Made by a program: the position numbers and the translations under genes. Of a DNA stretch of 64,000 bases, positions 1,594 to 63,586 are shown in pieces. The DNA comes from Photorhabdus heterorhabditis (GTDB taxonomy: Bacteria > Pseudomonadota > Gammaproteobacteria > Enterobacterales > Enterobacteriaceae), in the NCBI RefSeq assembly GCF_018448905.1, contig NZ_RCWA01000016.1, forward strand, positions 1-64,000. Reading direction: 5' to 3'. Each line of letters begins with the position of its first letter. Positions within the stretch are counted from its first letter, which is position 1. The notes under the pieces were generated by a model. It did no database searches, was not told the origin of the DNA, and saw nothing but the letters and a program-made list of their open reading frames with translations.

Positions 1594-4320
1594 TCAGGGG
1601 GCTATCAGCCCGCACAGGTGCGCCGTGTCGTTATCTTCACCGTCGAACAGCAGTTCATAGACGAACGTCAGTCCGCGCCGGTGCAACAGCAGGTATTCCA
1701 TTTCGACCAGCCGTGACAGATGGATTTTTAGCTGGGTATCGCCCCACTGGATGGCGTCGCGTAACAGTTTGCGGGTGAACAGCCACTCATGACGCGGCTG
1801 CCCGCTTTCCCTGACCCAGTTTTGTATCAGCAGCAACAGCCTGCGCGTCTGCGGCGGCATCTCATCCAGTGTGCGGCCTAATATCTCGTGGGCCAGCCGG
1901 TTTGCTAAGCTAATATCGTCTTTGGTCACCTCGATATATTCAAGCCGTTTGCCCCGGTGTTCCGCGGTCTTCACCTCGCGCTGGTGCTGATGCAGCAGGG
2001 CGATACTTTGTATCAGGGTGAGATATTTCATGTGGTCGCGCCGGGTGCGGGTTTTATCGCTCATGAACGTTAACTGTGAGGCATAAGGGTTAACCACATT
2101 GAGCGGGCGCAACAGCCGCTGGGCGTTTTGATGCAGTTCGGTGATATACGCCTTTTCATTCTCGGCCAGTAAGCCTTCGAGGGTTTGCTTATGGCGCTGC
2201 AAGGCGTGGATAGCTTCGGTCTGTTCCCGCGATTCGTTCACGGTCAGCACCAGACAGCGGTTTAACAGCTCTTCATCGACATCTATCGCGGTGGTGGTGA
2301 GCATCAGCATCACCGGTCCTTTCACCGTGTACTGTTTGGTGACCAGATTCCCGCTGGCATCGTCTTTACCGGTGCTGGCAATGGTCAGTTCGCCGTCGCT
2401 TTGCAACAGCTTAAGCGCATAGGCGGCCTGCCTGACGCCTTCCTCTTCGGCAATGGCTAAGATTTTATGCTGGAGATTGGTTTCCCCCAGATAGAACAGA
2501 CTCTGGCCGGTCATGGCGCTGTATTGCAGCCGTTCCTCTGCCGGTATCAGATTGAGGACCGCATCCATCAGTGAGCTTTTCCCGGCGGCACTGCTGCTTT
2601 GTATCAGCACGGCCAGCGGACGGTCCAGCTTGCGACTGACGGCGGCTAAGTAACCGGCCAGCAGGTTAGTGGATTCGCCTACCACGCCACAGGCGGCTAA
2701 ATCAGCGGTGATGCGCTCGCTCAGTTTCGGGTCTTGCAGCAGGGCCAGTGCTGCTATCCGCTGGTCCTCACTCAGTTCGGGAACCGGTGGGGTTTCGGTT
2801 TGTTCACTGACACCGGCCTGTTGACACTGTTCCAGTACCAGCAACACCTGCCCCAGCGCCCGGCGCAGGTCACCTTCGGCCAGCCCCAGTTCGGTGGCGG
2901 CCAGCCGCGCATACCCGCCCCGGCTGCGGGCGTTCATCATGTCCACGCTGTCGGCGAACATCACGCCGCTGTCGGTATCAATCACCTGCGCATTGACTTT
3001 CATGACGGCGGCCCCGGCTCTGACCTGAGCCAGCCCGCGAACACACCAGCGCAGCGGACCCAGTGAGACGATGATTTCGCCGTTTGGCCCGGTCTCCCAC
3101 ACGACTCCGGGCAAAGACAGCGGTCTTGTTGCCCGCTCAGCGGCTAAAGCAACAGGGGGTTCCGTTGCCGGGGACGGCGGCGCTGCCGGTGCGCCCGGTG
3201 CTTCGGTGTCGGTTTTCTGCACCGGCTCATACATTGGCACCGCGCCATCCAGCAATAACCCGAATGCCGGTTCGGGCTCGGCGACCTGACACAGATAGCC
3301 GTTGGCATCCATGCCCTCGGGGAACACTACCCGGAACACGGTCATGCCGGCGGCGGTCAGGTCTGCGGCCAGTTTCACCGCCGCCTCATTGCCGGCGGGG
3401 TCATTATCGAAGGCAATCAGCACCTGCCTGACCTGATGCTGTTGCAGTGCCTGCCAGTGGTCGGGGGTAAAGCCATTGACGCCGTAGGCGGTGGTCACGT
3501 TACGGTATCCCGCCACCCAGAACGACATGGCATCGATTAATGACTCACACAGGATAAGCGATTTGGCCGCTATCATGGCGGCTTCATTCCACACGCCGCG
3601 GTGCTCGCCGGGCAGGTAGAGATGTTTCGGGGTACCCGCCCGCAGGCGCTGGATGATTTTCCGGCCATAGATTTCCTGTACCTGCCCGTGGTTGTCGAGT
3701 ACCGGTATCACGAGCGAGCCGCTAAAGTGTTCATGACCTGACTCCCGCATCAGGCCCACCGCTTGCAACCGGGCCCGGATAGCTGCGCCGGCTTTCAGTT
3801 GTTTCTCCGGCAGGCGGTAAGCCAGGGTTCGGTTGGCAAAGCCGAGCTTAAAACCGGCGACTAATTCGGGATGATGTAACCGGCGTTTTTCCAGATAGGC
3901 CACGGCTTCGGGGGCGTTCAGCAGCGTATGATGGTAAAACTCCACCACCCGGCTGAGCAGCGCCTGCCGTCCGGCTTCGTCTTCGGCCAGCACGGTGGGT
4001 TCATTCGGCTGAACCAGCGGCGCAACAGCCGGATTATTCCCCAGCGTGCCGCGCAGGTGCTCTGCCGCCCGTCGCAGGCTCAGGCGTTCGGTTTTCATCA
4101 CCCAGTCCAGCACTGAACCGCCGGTGTTGCAGCCAAAACAGTGATAGAGGTTTTTTTCCGGGCTGAGGACCATTGACGGGGTTTTTTCCTCATGGAACGG
4201 GCACAGCAGCACGTAATCTTTACCGCGTTTAATCAGCTTGCGGCCCTGTTGTTCCGCCACGGCCACTAAGGAGACGGCGGTTTTCAGGTGCTGTAATTCG
4301 GCTTCCGGGATGCGTGCCAT
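1594..4320 (-). CDS. large CHC2/Toprim DNA primase fused to an ATPase domain
   Basis: A 908-residue replication protein of a mobile element. Residues 1-100 form a DnaG-type CHC2 zinc domain with ligands Cys40, His43, Cys61 and Cys64. A Toprim domain follows near 245-340, with acidic motif CESLIDAM and later FDNDPAG. After a proline-rich linker a second half has a Walker A at about 574-582 (SSSAAGKSS) and looks like an AAA+ or helicase-type motor. Primase plus ATPase in one chain is typical of element-encoded replication initiators. The start is at MARIPEAE, preceded by GGGGGG seven to eight bases upstream; the longer frame lacks this. Alternative view: a primase with a DNA-transporting ATPase rather than a helicase. 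Confidence 0.85.
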   Translation of the reverse strand: MARIPEAELQHLKTAVSLVAVAEQQGRKLIKRGKDYVLLCPFHEEKTPSMVLSPEKNLYHCFGCNTGGSVLDWVMKTERLSLRRAAEHLRGTLGNNPAVAPLVQPNEPTVLAEDEAGRQALLSRVVEFYHHTLLNAPEAVAYLEKRRLHHPELVAGFKLGFANRTLAYRLPEKQLKAGAAIRARLQAVGLMRESGHEHFSGSLVIPVLDNHGQVQEIYGRKIIQRLRAGTPKHLYLPGEHRGVWNEAAMIAAKSLILCESLIDAMSFWVAGYRNVTTAYGVNGFTPDHWQALQQHQVRQVLIAFDNDPAGNEAAVKLAADLTAAGMTVFRVVFPEGMDANGYLCQVAEPEPAFGLLLDGAVPMYEPVQKTDTEAPGAPAAPPSPATEPPVALAAERATRPLSLPGVVWETGPNGEIIVSLGPLRWCVRGLAQVRAGAAVMKVNAQVIDTDSGVMFADSVDMMNARSRGGYARLAATELGLAEGDLRRALGQVLLVLEQCQQAGVSEQTETPPVPELSEDQRIAALALLQDPKLSERITADLAACGVVGESTNLLAGYLAAVSRKLDRPLAVLIQSSSAAGKSSLMDAVLNLIPAEERLQYSAMTGQSLFYLGETNLQHKILAIAEEEGVRQAAYALKLLQSDGELTIASTGKDDASGNLVTKQYTVKGPVMLMLTTTAIDVDEELLNRCLVLTVNESREQTEAIHALQRHKQTLEGLLAENEKAYITELHQNAQRLLRPLNVVNPYASQLTFMSDKTRTRRDHMKYLTLIQSIALLHQHQREVKTAEHRGKRLEYIEVTKDDISLANRLAHEILGRTLDEMPPQTRRLLLLIQNWVRESGQPRHEWLFTRKLLRDAIQWGDTQLKIHLSRLVEMEYLLLHRRGLTFVYELLFDGEDNDTAHLCGLIAP

Positions 4321-4442: not shown

Positions 4443-4853
4443 ATGGCTGATGTGATAGATGAGATTATGCAGACCGAAGAACAGCGCCGGGCATTCGGTA
4501 AACGACTCAAAGAGTTACGTAACCAACAGCGACGAACACAGAAGGAAGTTGCTGCCCTGATTGGCTTGCAACTTTCGCAGTACAACAAGTATGAGTCCGG
4601 GATGCACATCCCTCCGGCTGATAAGTTGATCCAACTGGCTGAGTTGTTCACGACAACTATTGATTACTTATTGCTTGGCTCGCCTAACGAACAGAGACCA
4701 ATTAGCAACACGCGATTAATGGAGCGATTTAAAGCACTGGCCCAATGCCAGCCGGAAGAACAGGAGACCGTGATTAAACTGATTGATGCGGTGATTGTTA
4801 AGCACCGGGTTGAGTCGGCAATACGCCCTGTTGATCAGGAGAAGAATAACTAA
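4443..4853 (+). CDS. XRE-family HTH transcriptional regulator
   Basis: A 136-residue Cro/C1-type DNA-binding protein. The helix-turn-helix lies at about residues 12-65, with the usual LKELRNQQRRTQKEVAALIG and a recognition segment QLSQYNKYESG, followed by a conserved dimerisation-like helix (LIQLAELFTTTIDYLLLG). The C-terminal half is helical with no recognised enzyme domain. The ATG at 4443 has TTGGAG upstream; an earlier TTG at 4413 is possible. It is divergent from the primase gene across about 120 AT-rich bases, so it probably controls the integrase-primase module, itself, or both. Confidence 0.82.
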   Translation: MADVIDEIMQTEEQRRAFGKRLKELRNQQRRTQKEVAALIGLQLSQYNKYESGMHIPPADKLIQLAELFTTTIDYLLLGSPNEQRPISNTRLMERFKALAQCQPEEQETVIKLIDAVIVKHRVESAIRPVDQEKNN

Positions 4854-51158: not shown

Positions 51159-51235
51159 GCGCCCTTAGCTCAGCTGGATAGAGCAACGGCCTTCTAAGCC
51201 GTAGGTCACAGGTTCGAATCCTGTAGGGCGCGCCA
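51159..51235 (+). tRNA. argU: tRNA-Arg (anticodon UCU)
   Basis: A 77-base cloverleaf: acceptor GCGCCCT pairs with AGGGCGC, D-loop AGCTCAGCTGGATAGAGC, anticodon loop CTTCTAA with TCT at 51193-51195, T-arm with GGTTCGAATCC and encoded CCA. Same isoacceptor and neighbour (folD) as E. coli argU, the site where prophage DLP12 is inserted. Confidence 0.98.
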
Positions 51236-60484: not shown

Positions 60485-60712
60485 TTATCTTACTGAATAA
60501 AGCCAAGTATTAGGCAAGCATCTGTTATTAAGTGATTCTACTGTCTTATTTTGCGTGATAGCAGAGAGTGAAATAGCTTTTAATGTTTTTGTTGAACATC
60601 CGGCTAAAGTTGTGACGATCTTCCTTTCAAGTTTTCTGTCAGCTTCAATAAGTTTTTGCTCTTTCATGCGCTGATTTTTACGACGTAATTTGCAACGTTG
60701 TTTTGCATTCAT
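60485..60712 (-). CDS. N-like arginine-rich antitermination protein
   Basis: A 75-residue protein whose first 20 residues, MNAKQRCKLRRKNQRMKEQK, form an arginine-rich motif aligning with lambda N (MDAQTRRRERRAEK) and P22 N (NAKTRRHERRRK): the Ala at 3, Arg at 6 and Arg-Arg at 10-11 coincide. It is the first gene of the left transcript and is preceded by a boxA plus hairpin (60870-60908) and a long inverted repeat. GGAGG lies before the ATG. In lambda such proteins bind boxB RNA and make RNA polymerase ignore terminators. The C-terminal part is not recognisably conserved. Confidence 0.72.
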   Translation of the reverse strand: MNAKQRCKLRRKNQRMKEQKLIEADRKLERKIVTTLAGCSTKTLKAISLSAITQNKTVESLNNRCLPNTWLYSVR

Positions 60713-60727
60713 AAGAACCTCCGTTAA

Positions 60728-60858
60728 TTAGCTTTGTTGTGATGCAAATGTGACATTGTGGCTCTATCACAGTCGCGCCTACTGCCATCCCGGTATGGGT
60801 TTGTATCTGTGAATACACTCAATTACTTTTTGGCCCGGTTGCATCACAACAAAGCTAA
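60728..60858 (-). promoter_or_regulatory. 20-bp perfect inverted repeat in the N-like leader (RNase III-type stem)
   Basis: TTAGCTTTGTTGTGATGCAA at 60728-60747 is perfectly complementary to the copy at 60839-60858, with a 91-base loop. In the leftward transcript the downstream arm ends about 15 bases before the start codon of the N-like gene and just upstream of its ribosome binding site. Lambda has a comparable RNase III-cut stem in the N leader that controls N translation. Confidence 0.7.
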
Positions 60859-60869
60859 CTTCGCCTTGT

Positions 60870-60908
60870 GTACACCTCGCGGCATACGTTTCATATTGTT
60901 AAAGAGCG
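60870..60908 (-). promoter_or_regulatory. nutL-like site: boxA and GNRA-loop boxB hairpin
   Basis: On the minus strand boxA CGCTCTTTAACAAT (60908-60895) is followed by 7 bases and then GTATGCC-GCGA-GGTGTAC (60887-60870), a 7-bp stem with two wobble pairs and a GCGA (GNRA) loop. The layout equals that of the right-hand site at 63110-63148. Confidence 0.75.
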
Positions 60909-61052
60909 AACATCCCTTTAGTTACTGCTTCCTGTTATTGCTGGTACTGCGTTGTTTCTTAGCACTTGCGAATCATCTACCTCTTCATCTGCCGGTAGCG
61001 ACTACTTCGTGGGCTTTCCTTGCCTTTTCGTTGTGTGCCTTTGATGTGATTA

Positions 61053-61081
61053 ATAATCACATATTGTGTTTTGCTAGTCAA
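61053..61081 (-). promoter_or_regulatory. prophage early left promoter pL
   Basis: On the minus strand TTGACT (61081-61076), a 17-base spacer and GATTAT (61058-61053). One operator covers the -10 side and another the -35 side. Transcription would lead into nutL, the N-like gene and the genes to int. Confidence 0.75.
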
Positions 61082-61094
61082 CACGAAATGTGAT
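61056..61094. promoter_or_regulatory. left operators OL (two 15-bp sites)
   Basis: ATCAC-ATATT-GTGTT at 61056-61070 and AACAC-GAAAT-GTGAT at 61080-61094, 24 bases apart, both matching the rule WWCAC-N5-GTGWT of the right operators. A degenerate half-site with GTGTT ends near 61122 and might be a third, weaker site. Confidence 0.75.
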
Positions 61095-61235
61095 TTATTT
61101 TGTCGAATAAATATTATGTGTTTGATTTTTCGATTAATTTATTTTGAAAAAATTTTTCTGAGGTGAGATTTTAGTTAGCTCGGTGAGAAGAGGGTATAAA
61201 AAAGCCACCAGATTGGTGGCTTAGTGTGAGGGTTA

Positions 61236-62273
61236 TCAGTCTTCTTTTTTGTGGATAACAGATATTAGTTGTCCTGCTGAAACATGGTTATTTTCTGTGA
61301 CTTCAACATAGTTTATGGTGAGAATATTTTCTTGAGCAACCGCATCTGTAAACTCTTTTAATTCATCTGTTGATGTCATTTCGGTCGTAGTTTTAATGAT
61401 AAATGTATCATTGTTACTCGCCCTAGTGACGGTGATACTTATATCTTGATTCACCGGTCCAGTTCTTGTAACACCTTTAATGTAAAAATCATCTTCTTTG
61501 GTTATTTTGTTTCTATCAATAGATTGTCTTTGGCTATGAGTGTTAAGTTGATCTCTATTGACGATTTTTTCACCTAGAGAAACAGTGGTTACTGTTGGAT
61601 CTTGGGCTAGTTGCTTTAGTAGTTTATTTTTCCCATCTTCACCATGTGCAAGTATTTCTCTGCTGGTAGATGTTTGCCCAGTCCTCAAAATTTCCAATGT
61701 GTTTTGTTGTGCCTGAAGAACGGCATCAGTTGAAGCTTTAGAAAGGGCAATTTGGGCGGATGTAGTTTCTCTTTGTGTACTCCAATATTCGTCAGCAATT
61801 TTCCAGCTAACGGTGCCACAAGCAAGAACGAGCGCTATGACCGCGCATAGCGCTTGCCTTCCCGTCATTCTTCCTATAGCTTCTCTTAACACGCTAACAG
61901 CTCCGTTTATCACTTTGTCTGAGGTGCCATCAGCCTGACTGGAGCCCTCTCTAATATGGTAGACTATATCAAGTTTTTGTTTATCCGGATTGGTTAATCT
62001 CTGTAGGTTTTGCGATCCATATTTAATAATAGCAAATGCTCTTTGTATTTCTTCTGTTAGTGCAGCCATCCCAAAAAGCATTGATGCTGTAATTGAAGAG
62101 TTATAACGATTGGAATCGCCTTTTACATTTATGTCTAGAGTGGGCCACCCCCTGAATTCTATGTCAGGAAATAAAAATTCATCCGAATCTAAGTCTTTCC
62201 TATTTATCATTTGACTGATAAATGAGTAGAATTCATCCTCGTTGGTAATAACGAAATTTGGTTGTAAATTCAT
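61236..62273 (-). CDS. prophage membrane protein of unknown function at the rex position
   Basis: A 345-residue protein with one clear membrane helix at about 141-158 (ALCAVIALVLACGTVSW) preceded by a soluble N-terminal domain of 130 residues and followed by a helical then beta-rich domain. The region after the helix (TSAQIALSKASTDAVLQAQQ) looks like a coiled coil. AAGGATTAG precedes the ATG. It lies just downstream of the repressor gene on the same strand, so it is probably expressed in the lysogen, where lambda keeps its rexAB exclusion genes. No enzymatic motif is seen. Confidence 0.7.
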   Translation of the reverse strand: MNLQPNFVITNEDEFYSFISQMINRKDLDSDEFLFPDIEFRGWPTLDINVKGDSNRYNSSITASMLFGMAALTEEIQRAFAIIKYGSQNLQRLTNPDKQKLDIVYHIREGSSQADGTSDKVINGAVSVLREAIGRMTGRQALCAVIALVLACGTVSWKIADEYWSTQRETTSAQIALSKASTDAVLQAQQNTLEILRTGQTSTSREILAHGEDGKNKLLKQLAQDPTVTTVSLGEKIVNRDQLNTHSQRQSIDRNKITKEDDFYIKGVTRTGPVNQDISITVTRASNNDTFIIKTTTEMTSTDELKEFTDAVAQENILTINYVEVTENNHVSAGQLISVIHKKED

Positions 62274-62355
62274 CTACTAATCCTTAATGGTGTTCACCTA
62301 TGATAAATGTTTTGCAACCCTCACAAGTAGCACTTTGGTTATTAAAAAAAATTAC

Positions 62356-62760
62356 TTATGCTTTCTTTTTGCTCTTCTTTTGTGATAGTTCTTCTAGTAA
62401 TTGATTGTAATACCGTTTTTTTTCTTCAAGAGTTTTTAAAAGTTCGTCAGCTTCGCTATCCGGGAGTTCATCAAACAGTTCGAGAAGTATTTCTTGACGT
62501 CGACTCAACTCCTTACTTTTAAGTTGGCTATCTACGCAGCACTCTTGTTGTTCGCCGAACATTAATTCAGATGGAGAAACACAAAGGGCTTTGGATAAAA
62601 TGACAGCATCATCGGCGCTGACATTTCTAGTGCCGGATTCATAGTTTCCTATTCTTGATTGAGAGGCCCAGCCGCACCGTTCCGCGAGTGCGGCTTGGCT
62701 CATTTTTTGTTTGTTTCTAAGGCGCTTAATTCTTGCGCCGACGCTTTCATTAGTTTTCAT
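62356..62760 (-). CDS. CI-type prophage repressor without a self-cleavage domain
   Basis: A 134-residue repressor. The HTH spans about 10-65, with SQAALAERCGWASQSRIGNY and ESGTRNVSADDAVILSKAL. The C-terminal half (about 85-134) is a charged, coiled-coil-like helix. The LexA/S24 serine-lysine peptidase domain of lambda CI is missing. The recognition part SQSRIGNYESG is shared with the divergent Cro-like protein, so both should read the same operators. TAAGGG precedes the ATG. Confidence 0.85.
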   Translation of the reverse strand: MKTNESVGARIKRLRNKQKMSQAALAERCGWASQSRIGNYESGTRNVSADDAVILSKALCVSPSELMFGEQQECCVDSQLKSKELSRRQEILLELFDELPDSEADELLKTLEEKKRYYNQLLEELSQKKSKKKA

Positions 62761-62772
62761 GAACCCTTATTT

Positions 62773-62833
62773 AACACACCGCGTGTTTTTTATCTTTCAC
62801 GATTTGTGTTTACAATGAATCACAAATCGTGTT
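62773..62833. promoter_or_regulatory. right operators OR (three 15-bp sites, 23-bp period)
   Basis: AACAC-ACCGC-GTGTT at 62773-62787, TTCAC-GATTT-GTGTT at 62796-62810 and ATCAC-AAATC-GTGTT at 62819-62833. Starts are exactly 23 bases apart. The rightmost lies inside the pR spacer, the middle overlaps the pR -35 box, and the leftmost is next to the repressor gene, as for lambda OR1, OR2 and OR3. Confidence 0.85.
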
Positions 62834-62837
62834 TAAT
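62809..62837 (+). promoter_or_regulatory. prophage early right promoter pR
   Basis: TTTACA (62809-62814), a 17-base spacer and TTTAAT (62832-62837), 28 bases before the Cro-like ATG. Covered by two of the three operators. Confidence 0.75.
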
Positions 62838-62865
62838 GATGATGATTTAGATACAGGGAGTAACT

Positions 62866-63078
62866 ATGAACAAGATCTCAAATGCCAGAAAAGTGATCGG
62901 CATCACCCAATCTGAGTTAGCAAAAATACTTGGGTGGTCACAGTCACGTATTGGTAATTATGAATCTGGAATTAGAACCCCAGATTTGCATTCATGCCGC
63001 GAAATTGTGTTAGCACTGAATTCTTTTGGTGGGATGTATTGTCTTGATGACATCTTTCCACCCAAAAAAGCGGCATAA
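62866..63078 (+). CDS. Cro-like repressor
   Basis: A 70-residue HTH protein (MNKISNARKVIGITQSELAK) with recognition segment GWSQSRIGNYESGIR, nearly the same as in the divergent CI-like repressor. First gene of the right transcript, with GGGAG before the ATG. Expected to bind the shared operators and favour lytic growth. Confidence 0.82.
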   Translation: MNKISNARKVIGITQSELAKILGWSQSRIGNYESGIRTPDLHSCREIVLALNSFGGMYCLDDIFPPKKAA

Positions 63079-63109
63079 CAACACACAAAGCGAGCCAGTA
63101 TAGCTCGCA

Positions 63110-63148
63110 TGCTCTTTAACAATCCGCCTCCTACGCTGCAAAGTGTAG
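63110..63148 (+). promoter_or_regulatory. nutR-like site: boxA and GNRA-loop boxB hairpin
   Basis: boxA TGCTCTTTAACAAT (63110-63123), identical to the rRNA-operon boxA, a 7-base spacer, then CTACGCT-GCAA-AGTGTAG (63131-63148), a 7-bp stem with one wobble pair and a GCAA loop. It follows cro as in lambda. A separate GCGAGC/GCTCGC hairpin (63090-63108) lies directly before boxA. Confidence 0.78.
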
Positions 63149-63190
63149 ATTCCCTGTTTAAGAATAGGGATTCCCCGATTGCGGGGAGCG

Positions 63191-63208
63191 TAGCCTTAAC
63201 CAAGGCTA
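63191..63208 (+). terminator. tR1-like terminator between nutR and the CII-like gene
   Basis: TAGCCTT pairs with AAGGCTA around AACC, followed by AT-rich TAAATTTAATTTT. Two further hairpins (CCCCG/CGGGG at 63173-63186 and TCCCT/AGGGA at 63151-63170) precede it. The site is where lambda has tR1. Confidence 0.55.
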
Positions 63209-63241
63209 TAAATTTAATTTTAACTTAAGGAAATTTAACAT

Positions 63242-63586
63242 ATGGATATCGCAAAAACTTGCAAAACTCAGATCACATGCAAACCCGAACTGCTAGAAAG
63301 TTACTGGTTAAAAACCGCTCTTGAGTATGGGAATAATCAACTTGCTAAAGAGATGGGAATACATCCGTCCGGCTTAAGCCGGGATAAGAATCGGATCGCT
63401 AAATTAGCGAGTCTGATGGTTGTTAAACTTGGATTACCAGAGGGTAGCGTCGCCGCTCCTGGATGTGATGCAAATATTGTTCTAACGGGAGTAGAAGCAA
63501 GTAAGTTGCTTTCGATACTTGAGCATATCAGAGAGCCGAAAGAAAAAGCCCCGGTTGTTGGAGCAACTGAGGCTAATCAAATATGA
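63242..63586 (+). CDS. CII-like transcriptional activator
   Basis: A 114-residue protein in the CII position after nutR. An HTH is seen at about 25-55: TALEYGNNQLAKEMGIHPSG followed by LSRDKNRIAKLASLMVVKL, close to lambda CII (GTEKTAEAVGVDKSQISRWK-like). The C-terminus is longer and acidic. AAGGAAA lies before the ATG. Lambda CII activates repressor and int expression; the same role is inferred. Confidence 0.75.
   Translation: MDIAKTCKTQITCKPELLESYWLKTALEYGNNQLAKEMGIHPSGLSRDKNRIAKLASLMVVKLGLPEGSVAAPGCDANIVLTGVEASKLLSILEHIREPKEKAPVVGATEANQI

Follow-up and report, generated by a model that had tools for sequence, protein, structure and literature searches.

What lies between nutL and the N gene of a lambda-type prophage, and what might it do there? 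This question was raised by a prophage in a stretch of 64,000 nucleotides (nt) from Photorhabdus heterorhabditis (contig NZ_RCWA01000016.1 of assembly GCF_018448905.1, positions 1-64,000; hereafter the window), for which a first-pass annotation had proposed a complete N/nut antitermination circuit with a new family of boxB hairpins. We estimate with a probability of about 0.8 that the locus combines a lambda-type N/nut circuit with a leader stem holding a discrete, covarying RNA, which is most likely released by RNase III and acts in trans. Judged from its sequence, the circuit is of an ordinary kind, and its native tetraloop boxB is common to a group of prophages. The structured RNA between nutL and N was missed by the first-pass annotation.

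The N/nut circuit

Both early transcripts carried a boxA followed by a boxB, as had been proposed. The nutL boxA (CGCTCTTTAACAAT, 60895..60908, minus strand) was identified by motif match and was followed after 7 nt by a boxB (60870..60887, minus strand) with a stem of 7 base pairs (bp), GTATGCC/GGTGTAC, and a GCGA tetraloop. The nutR boxA (TGCTCTTTAACAAT, 63110..63123, plus strand), also a motif match, was followed after 7 nt by a boxB (63131..63148, plus strand) with the 7-bp stem CTACGCT/AGTGTAG and a GCAA tetraloop. Both boxBs were assigned by predicted fold and by comparison with relatives, and both predicted folds were as drawn, with folding z values of -1.84 (left) and -5.57 (right) for the isolated hairpins and -0.25 and -1.48 when boxA and flanks were included. 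The GNRA identity of both loops is one of letters, known from the sequence. Ten hairpins with 7 bp and a GNRA tetraloop were present on the two strands of the window, and two of them stood at an identical offset behind its sole two exact boxA matches; given the hairpin density, the chance of this exact spacing occurring twice was about 6e-9. None of the five boxA-like sites with two mismatches in the window had such a hairpin behind it, and one site with three mismatches had a hairpin at a different offset. The boxA string YGCTCTTTAACAAT occurred in 10 exact copies in the prophage's own genome, two of them at nut, and a reversed-pattern control gave 0. Six of the eight non-nut copies were inspected and shared one common stretch, with the sequence stopping 29 nt from the match start. 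We take the non-nut copies to be the boxA of ribosomal RNA leaders (rrn boxA).

The two stems were more alike than the first-pass annotation had suggested. Two of their pairs changed on both sides (G-C to C-G and C-G to U-A), but 9 of the 14 stem bases were identical, and pairing without sequence identity was therefore an overstatement. Wobble pairs were shared in part: the left stem had two and the right one, with one position in common.

Comparison with relatives showed that the form [GC]TATGCC-GNRA-GGTGTA[GC] was kept in nutL beside the closest N genes. For the nutR boxB, Photorhabdus-type prophages had CTACGCT-GCAA-AGTGTAG or CTATGCC-GCGA-GGTGTAG, and Hafnia-type prophages mostly had CCCTGCC-GCAA-TGTGGGG, a form with a C.U mismatch beneath the loop. 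The core YGCY-GNRA-nGYG recurred in Hafnia and Tatumella prophages as well as in Photorhabdus-type ones, and HK620 had a close variant of it, so the proposal of a new boxB family was not supported; a family unique to this prophage was rejected on the boxBs of the relatives. A wider survey of 80 loci revealed many other boxB shapes in other N lineages, further tetraloop boxBs included; 17 of these loci had no boxA by the pattern used, and others matched it away from nut.

The relatives in the boxB alignment (A2) were picked for GNRA, and the row search accepted only hairpins with a GNRA loop and 5 or more of the 7 pairs. This gave 30 distinct hairpins, of which 18 were used, and 12 (L061/L094, L063/L096, L074/L112, L116, L124, L134, L200, L208, L210/L215, L212, L213, L214) were excluded because their stems were shorter, their cores differed or their phage setting was unclear. 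Among the 18, 89.7% of the cells were paired against 71.1% in shuffles, a percentage that was partly built in because the search demanded hairpins, and 25 cells carried double changes against 8.9; neither these values nor the score was reached in any of 500 shuffles. The 13 closest boxBs gave 92.3% paired cells against 75.1% and 14 double-change cells against 4.7 (0/500), and their number of pairs with double changes was equalled in 28 of 500 shuffles. Subject to this selection of rows, boxB pairing appears to be conserved and to covary in related prophages, as the first-pass annotation had anticipated.

The first left gene (60485..60712, minus strand) encodes an N-type antitermination protein of 75 amino acids, in agreement with the earlier reading. 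It matched Pfam PF25694 (N_peptide) at 31.3 bits against a cut-off of 27.9, also in a genome scan, and matched phrog_271. Its N terminus was arginine-rich (MNAKQRCKLRRKNQR), and R10, R11 and R15 were invariant in an alignment of 12 N rows (A1). Within the family, a protein search recovered relatives of N from 14 of 392 genomes (own genome counted) and a search by Pfam family from 67 of 392 (61 above the cut-off); relatives also lay on 22 viral contigs and 4 genome contigs. The viral-contig search repeated with A1 returned the same 22 contigs and none in addition, and a search of PDB sequences with the window N gave no match up to E 10. The N of G301, from the same genus, was 88% identical. As far as its sequences can be compared, N looks modular, with heads and tails exchanged.

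The gene order was also of the lambda type, with N leftward behind nutL and with the repressor, a Cro-type gene, nutR and a CII-like gene, and thus supported the layout proposed earlier. Lambda shares this order, boxA then boxB, and N leftward behind nutL, but its boxBs have 5-nt loops (GAAGA/GAAAA) instead of a 4-nt GNRA loop, and its N was 27% identical to the window N in a loose alignment. HK620 resembles the window in having a GNRA loop with the same GC core; its boxB, TCCCGCC-GAAA-TGCGGGA on both sides, differs mainly by the C.U mismatch under the loop, and its record describes its N as similar to those of H19B and 21. The Hafnia phage Pocitis76 and related prophages have the nutL boxB GTATGCC-GAGA-GGTGTAC and an N 47% identical over 72 residues, whereas their nutR boxB has the C.U mismatch.

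A structured RNA in the N leader

The stretch from nutL to N contained a stem of 22 pairs (60726..60860, minus strand; arms 60860-60839/60747-60726), identified by folding and comparison, with a folding z of -4.26 that was reached in 0 of 200 shuffles. The stem lies at the position of the RNase III site of lambda, which work by Wilson and colleagues in 2002 reportedly placed in a stem that separates nutL from the N ribosome site. A similar stem, GYTTTGG...CCAAARC, was found just before N in lambda (GGCTTTGG...CCAAAGC), Sf6, mEp213, HK620 and other prophages. To our knowledge, no folded, exchangeable RNA domain has been reported at the lambda site, and none of the literature matches listed described exchangeable RNAs in N leaders.

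In the window, the stem was capped by an RNA of about 110 nt, in which two arms were joined via a loop-loop helix. The domain (model R1; 60731..60854, minus strand) was defined by alignment, covariation and a covariance model, and comprised the helices P1 (60848-60839/60747-60738), P2 (60838-60835/60793-60790; alignment columns 17-20/65-68), P5 (60787-60783/60755-60751) and P6 (60779-60777/60762-60760), the loop-loop helix (60812-60807/60772-60767; columns 46-51/87-92) and a conserved AAAAGTAAT at 60830-60822, all on the minus strand. The window leader was 74% identical to that of G027 over 113 nt (E 3.5e-10) and 71.6% identical to that of Flyfo siphovirus Tbat2_3 (E 3e-3). Analysis of an alignment of seven members (A6; 29 pairs, 203 cells) showed that 99.0% of the cells were paired against 82.5% in shuffles and that 17 of the 29 pairs carried double changes against 8.4 (both 0/500), whereas helices slid by 1-3 columns were only 30-44% paired. 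When P1 was left out, the remaining 19 pairs were 99.2% paired against 88.4%, with 8 double-change pairs against 4.3 (0/500); the number of pair types, equalled in 351 of 500 shuffles, was not unusual. We regard the fold as real because its pairs covary. Unaided, RNAalifold returned P1, P2, P5, P6 and two inner helices, one of which, P4, was broken in several rows as aligned. A local pairing of columns 17-20/33-36 was rejected: it was broken in the window and L300, whereas 17-20/65-68 was kept in all seven rows. Rfam 15 gave no match to the leader at gathering (best sub-threshold score 23.8 bits against a gathering score of 90), and no tRNA fold was found in the window leader.

A covariance model built without the loop-loop helix (R1) matched 5 of 392 genomes: the own genome, G012, G027 and G098, all four in A6, and G111, which was new and matched at 67.3 bits. 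This recovered an eighth member, whose loops, CTAAGT and ACTTAG, were an exact 6-nt complement in new letters; the same complement arose by chance in 144 of 20000 shuffles of the arm. One position of P5 was unpaired in G111. Among 95 sources, the model gave four strong matches (the window, L240, L305 and L317, each of them an A6 row) and three weak matches of 25-28 bits. Across the 392 genomes, the leader RNA occurred in 5 of 154 genera sampled, and a search of E. coli genomes found it in 1 of 5426.

Six of the eight members (the window, L240, G027, L305, G098 and G111) preceded an N-type gene that passed the family cut-off or a local profile; a small reading frame apparently lay between the RNA and N in G098, and the N match of G111 had an internal stop. 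The G012 member preceded an open reading frame with a weak N match of 19.6 bits, under the cut-off. The remaining member, in E. coli MB07152 (L317), lay away from N in an 890-nt stretch (1096-1985) in which no gene was annotated; a portal-side gene and a Gp49-family gene flank the stretch. A second type of leader interior adjoined the RNA there, so at least two RNAs of the leader type followed one another. The second type consisted of two hairpins whose loops, GGCUGA and AUCAG, were mutually complementary; its search demanded stems, and its pairing is no independent test. Parts of the L317 stretch matched 255 phage records, 134 of them from Klebsiella phages, but most of these records matched other parts of it, because the RNA core matched only three: two Klebsiella phages (96-97%) and the Flyfo phage.

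Exchange of leader interiors and neighboring genes

At least 12 pairs were found at the stem in 42 of 104 non-redundant loci by a motif-based count. Extraction of leader interiors yielded 84 distinct leader/N combinations in 30 interior clusters and 17 N clusters; two stricter versions, which gave 25 and 12 combinations, were replaced by this looser one. These counts are not prevalences, because 77 of the loci were contigs added via the right-arm pattern, which biased the sample towards leaders with the arm. Seven of the 30 interior clusters were found with two or more N clusters, and of 253 pairs of N with at least 90% identity, 156 had different interiors. The 217-nt interior of Sf6, whose N and nut are of the lambda type, was 94% identical to that of the Hafnia-type prophage contig L173, the N of which gave no BLAST alignment to Sf6 N. 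Since interiors recur across N clusters and near-identical N have different interiors, the slot and N are exchanged independently, and phages appear, from these comparisons, to swap the leader RNA among themselves.

The interiors ranged from 4 to 217 nt and were of several types. That of lambda differed from the window's, and that of HK620 (60 nt) was of another type. Some interiors were transfer RNAs (tRNAs), namely tRNA-Gly (CCC) in Pocitis76, again unlike the window, and tRNA-Pro (AGG) in L235; complete tRNA genes lay inside the N-leader stem at L042 4901-4974 (tRNA-Gly CCC) and L235 369-450 (tRNA-Pro AGG). Another tRNA-Gly CCC was located at 3001-3074 of L218 (yong2), between the repressor and the next left gene, where no N was annotated. 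A T-arm was detected in 5 of 30 interior cluster representatives (shuffles mean 0.01, maximum 1; antisense 0) and, in an earlier count, in 5 of 98 leaders (shuffles mean 0.7, maximum 3). Relaxed ARAGORN at 75% was uninformative on leaders, with calls alike on both strands.

Some observations were made beside these comparisons. The leader stem was gone in the sibling prophages L017 and L018; the boxB of L017 led straight to the N ribosome site and that of L018 into other sequence. Phage mEp213 (L217) had tandem N genes at 3043-3375 and 4528-4800, one of lambda type behind a lambda-type nutL and one of HK620 type with its own leader stem. The N of L029, L032 and lambda (L043) had window-type arginine-rich heads and lambda-like C-terminal ends (...GKSIPLI). 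Repetitive Gly/Tyr-rich reading frames built of short repeats were seen at L321 2577-3037, near another N locus.

Around the circuit, an open reading frame matching phrog_6191 (unknown) was located between the repressor and N (61236..62273, minus strand). Profile matches identified a helix-turn-helix (HTH) repressor-type gene of 134 amino acids (62356..62760, minus strand) and a Cro-type HTH gene (62866..63078, plus strand). A CII-like regulator (63242..63586, plus strand) was assigned weakly (phrog_191, E 0.0016; Pfam CII below cut-off). A candidate leftward early promoter, TTGACT-17-GATTAT with an extended -10 (61053..61081, minus strand), is a weak call, because 36 promoter-like sites were present against 32.0 in shuffles. 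Between nutR and the CII-like gene, three hairpins in a row (63151-63209) are perhaps a tR1-like terminator region; the folding z of the whole region 63080-63210 was -5.3. A tRNA gene at 51159-51232, left of the N operon genes, is possibly the integration site.

Proposed function of the leader RNA

By analogy with lambda, N made from the first leftward message would bind the GNRA-tetraloop boxB of each early transcript, boxA would recruit host Nus factors, and RNA polymerase would then ignore downstream terminators. The long stem at the lambda RNase III position would enclose the folded RNA, with P1 and two arms paired through their end loops. RNase III would cut the stem and release a stable early RNA, which may act in trans on a host target, and the cut may also adjust N translation as in lambda. 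We infer that release and action in trans are most likely, because the content is exchanged independently of N, tRNAs occur in the same place and one member lies away from N. An example from P22 is comparable. P22B is a 96-nt RNA from RNA sequencing of P22-infected Salmonella that ends 16 nt before gene 24, the N homologue, which the authors list as its putative target (PMC13397905). Mapped on the P22 leader with these published ends, it begins within the left arm of the stem and continues to the right arm; at least one lambdoid N leader therefore yields a detectable small RNA. P22B thus resembles the window's case in its N-leader position and in ending with the right arm, but its interior is unlike that of the window, and it was the sole N-leader small RNA found in the literature searched.

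Several points weigh against this proposal, in addition to the built-in share of boxB pairing and the biased leader counts. Cleavage of the window stem by RNase III is presumed from its position and from work on lambda. The five leader helices were picked by eye on the same seven rows that were later counted, and interior energies were like those of shuffles (mean z -0.22 over 29 cluster representatives, one short one omitted; 0.2 for the window interior). Stability was accordingly rejected as proof of structure in leader interiors. For the 18 boxBs, the pairs with double changes (131 of 500 shuffles as high) and the pair types (169 of 500) were not unusual, nor were the pair types of the 13 closest (404 of 500). 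The window N lacks the C-terminal ...ITAR-type tail, some form of which was present in 9 of the 12 A1 rows; the N of L032 carries a different tail. Finally, this leader RNA was absent by signature scan from the sibling prophages L017, L018, L019 and L145, for G301 also by the R1 model; the RNA is dispensable for the circuit, because siblings without it keep nut and N.

The main rival is that the RNA controls N translation or early transcription in cis, like a riboswitch or a protein sensor, and that a swap of interior is a swap of signal. In seven of the eight members the right arm ended about 17-21 nt before the next start codon, and the architecture, a stem carrying two arms tied together by their loops, resembles known aptamer folds; the purine riboswitch has an aptamer of this type. 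However, one member of the eight lay in an E. coli prophage stretch without annotated genes and not before N, and one interior could accompany different N clusters, just as one N could follow different interiors. Cis control is thus possible but doubtful. Action in cis could also take the form of an antiterminator on RNA polymerase that adds to nut, like the put RNA of HK022: after nutL, the pL transcript has no large folded RNA ahead of this domain, whose position is presumably about that of putL. Members in N leaders nevertheless keep N, and the interiors are very diverse, which makes this explanation highly improbable.

The absence of the tail could mean that the circuit has decayed, with an inactive N of 75 amino acids that ends before the ITAR-type tail and nut sites as remnants. 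This is unlikely, as the N of L018 likewise ends before the tail, and both nut sites of the window are intact and of a kind that covaries. Lastly, the interior could be neutral filler in an RNase III site of which only the outer stem matters, as its shuffle-like energies and its length of 4 to 217 nt would allow. We give this the least credence, since the interior covaried without P1 (the 8 double-change pairs above) and the RNA recurred in several genera and once outside an N leader. The covariation argues against filler for this RNA type; filler could hold for other types.

Beyond release and action in trans at this locus, we tentatively suggest, as a doubtful generalization, that the lambdoid N leader is a dedicated slot for interchangeable compact RNAs (tRNAs, tRNA-like RNAs and RNAs with kissing loops), which, once freed by RNase III, would counter host functions, defence for example, as early effectors or decoys. 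The window RNA would be one new family of these, also present in an RNA-only stretch of another prophage. The nut part adds candidate natural N-boxB pairs with tetraloops of GNRA sequence that are usable for work on specificity, and a structured RNA family absent from Rfam is named. If the slot reading is true, the slot RNAs would be among the first RNA made on infection, and the textbook RNase III site becomes a candidate cargo slot. The question whether the earliest lambdoid transcript supplies a functional RNA ahead of N synthesis can thereby be tested.

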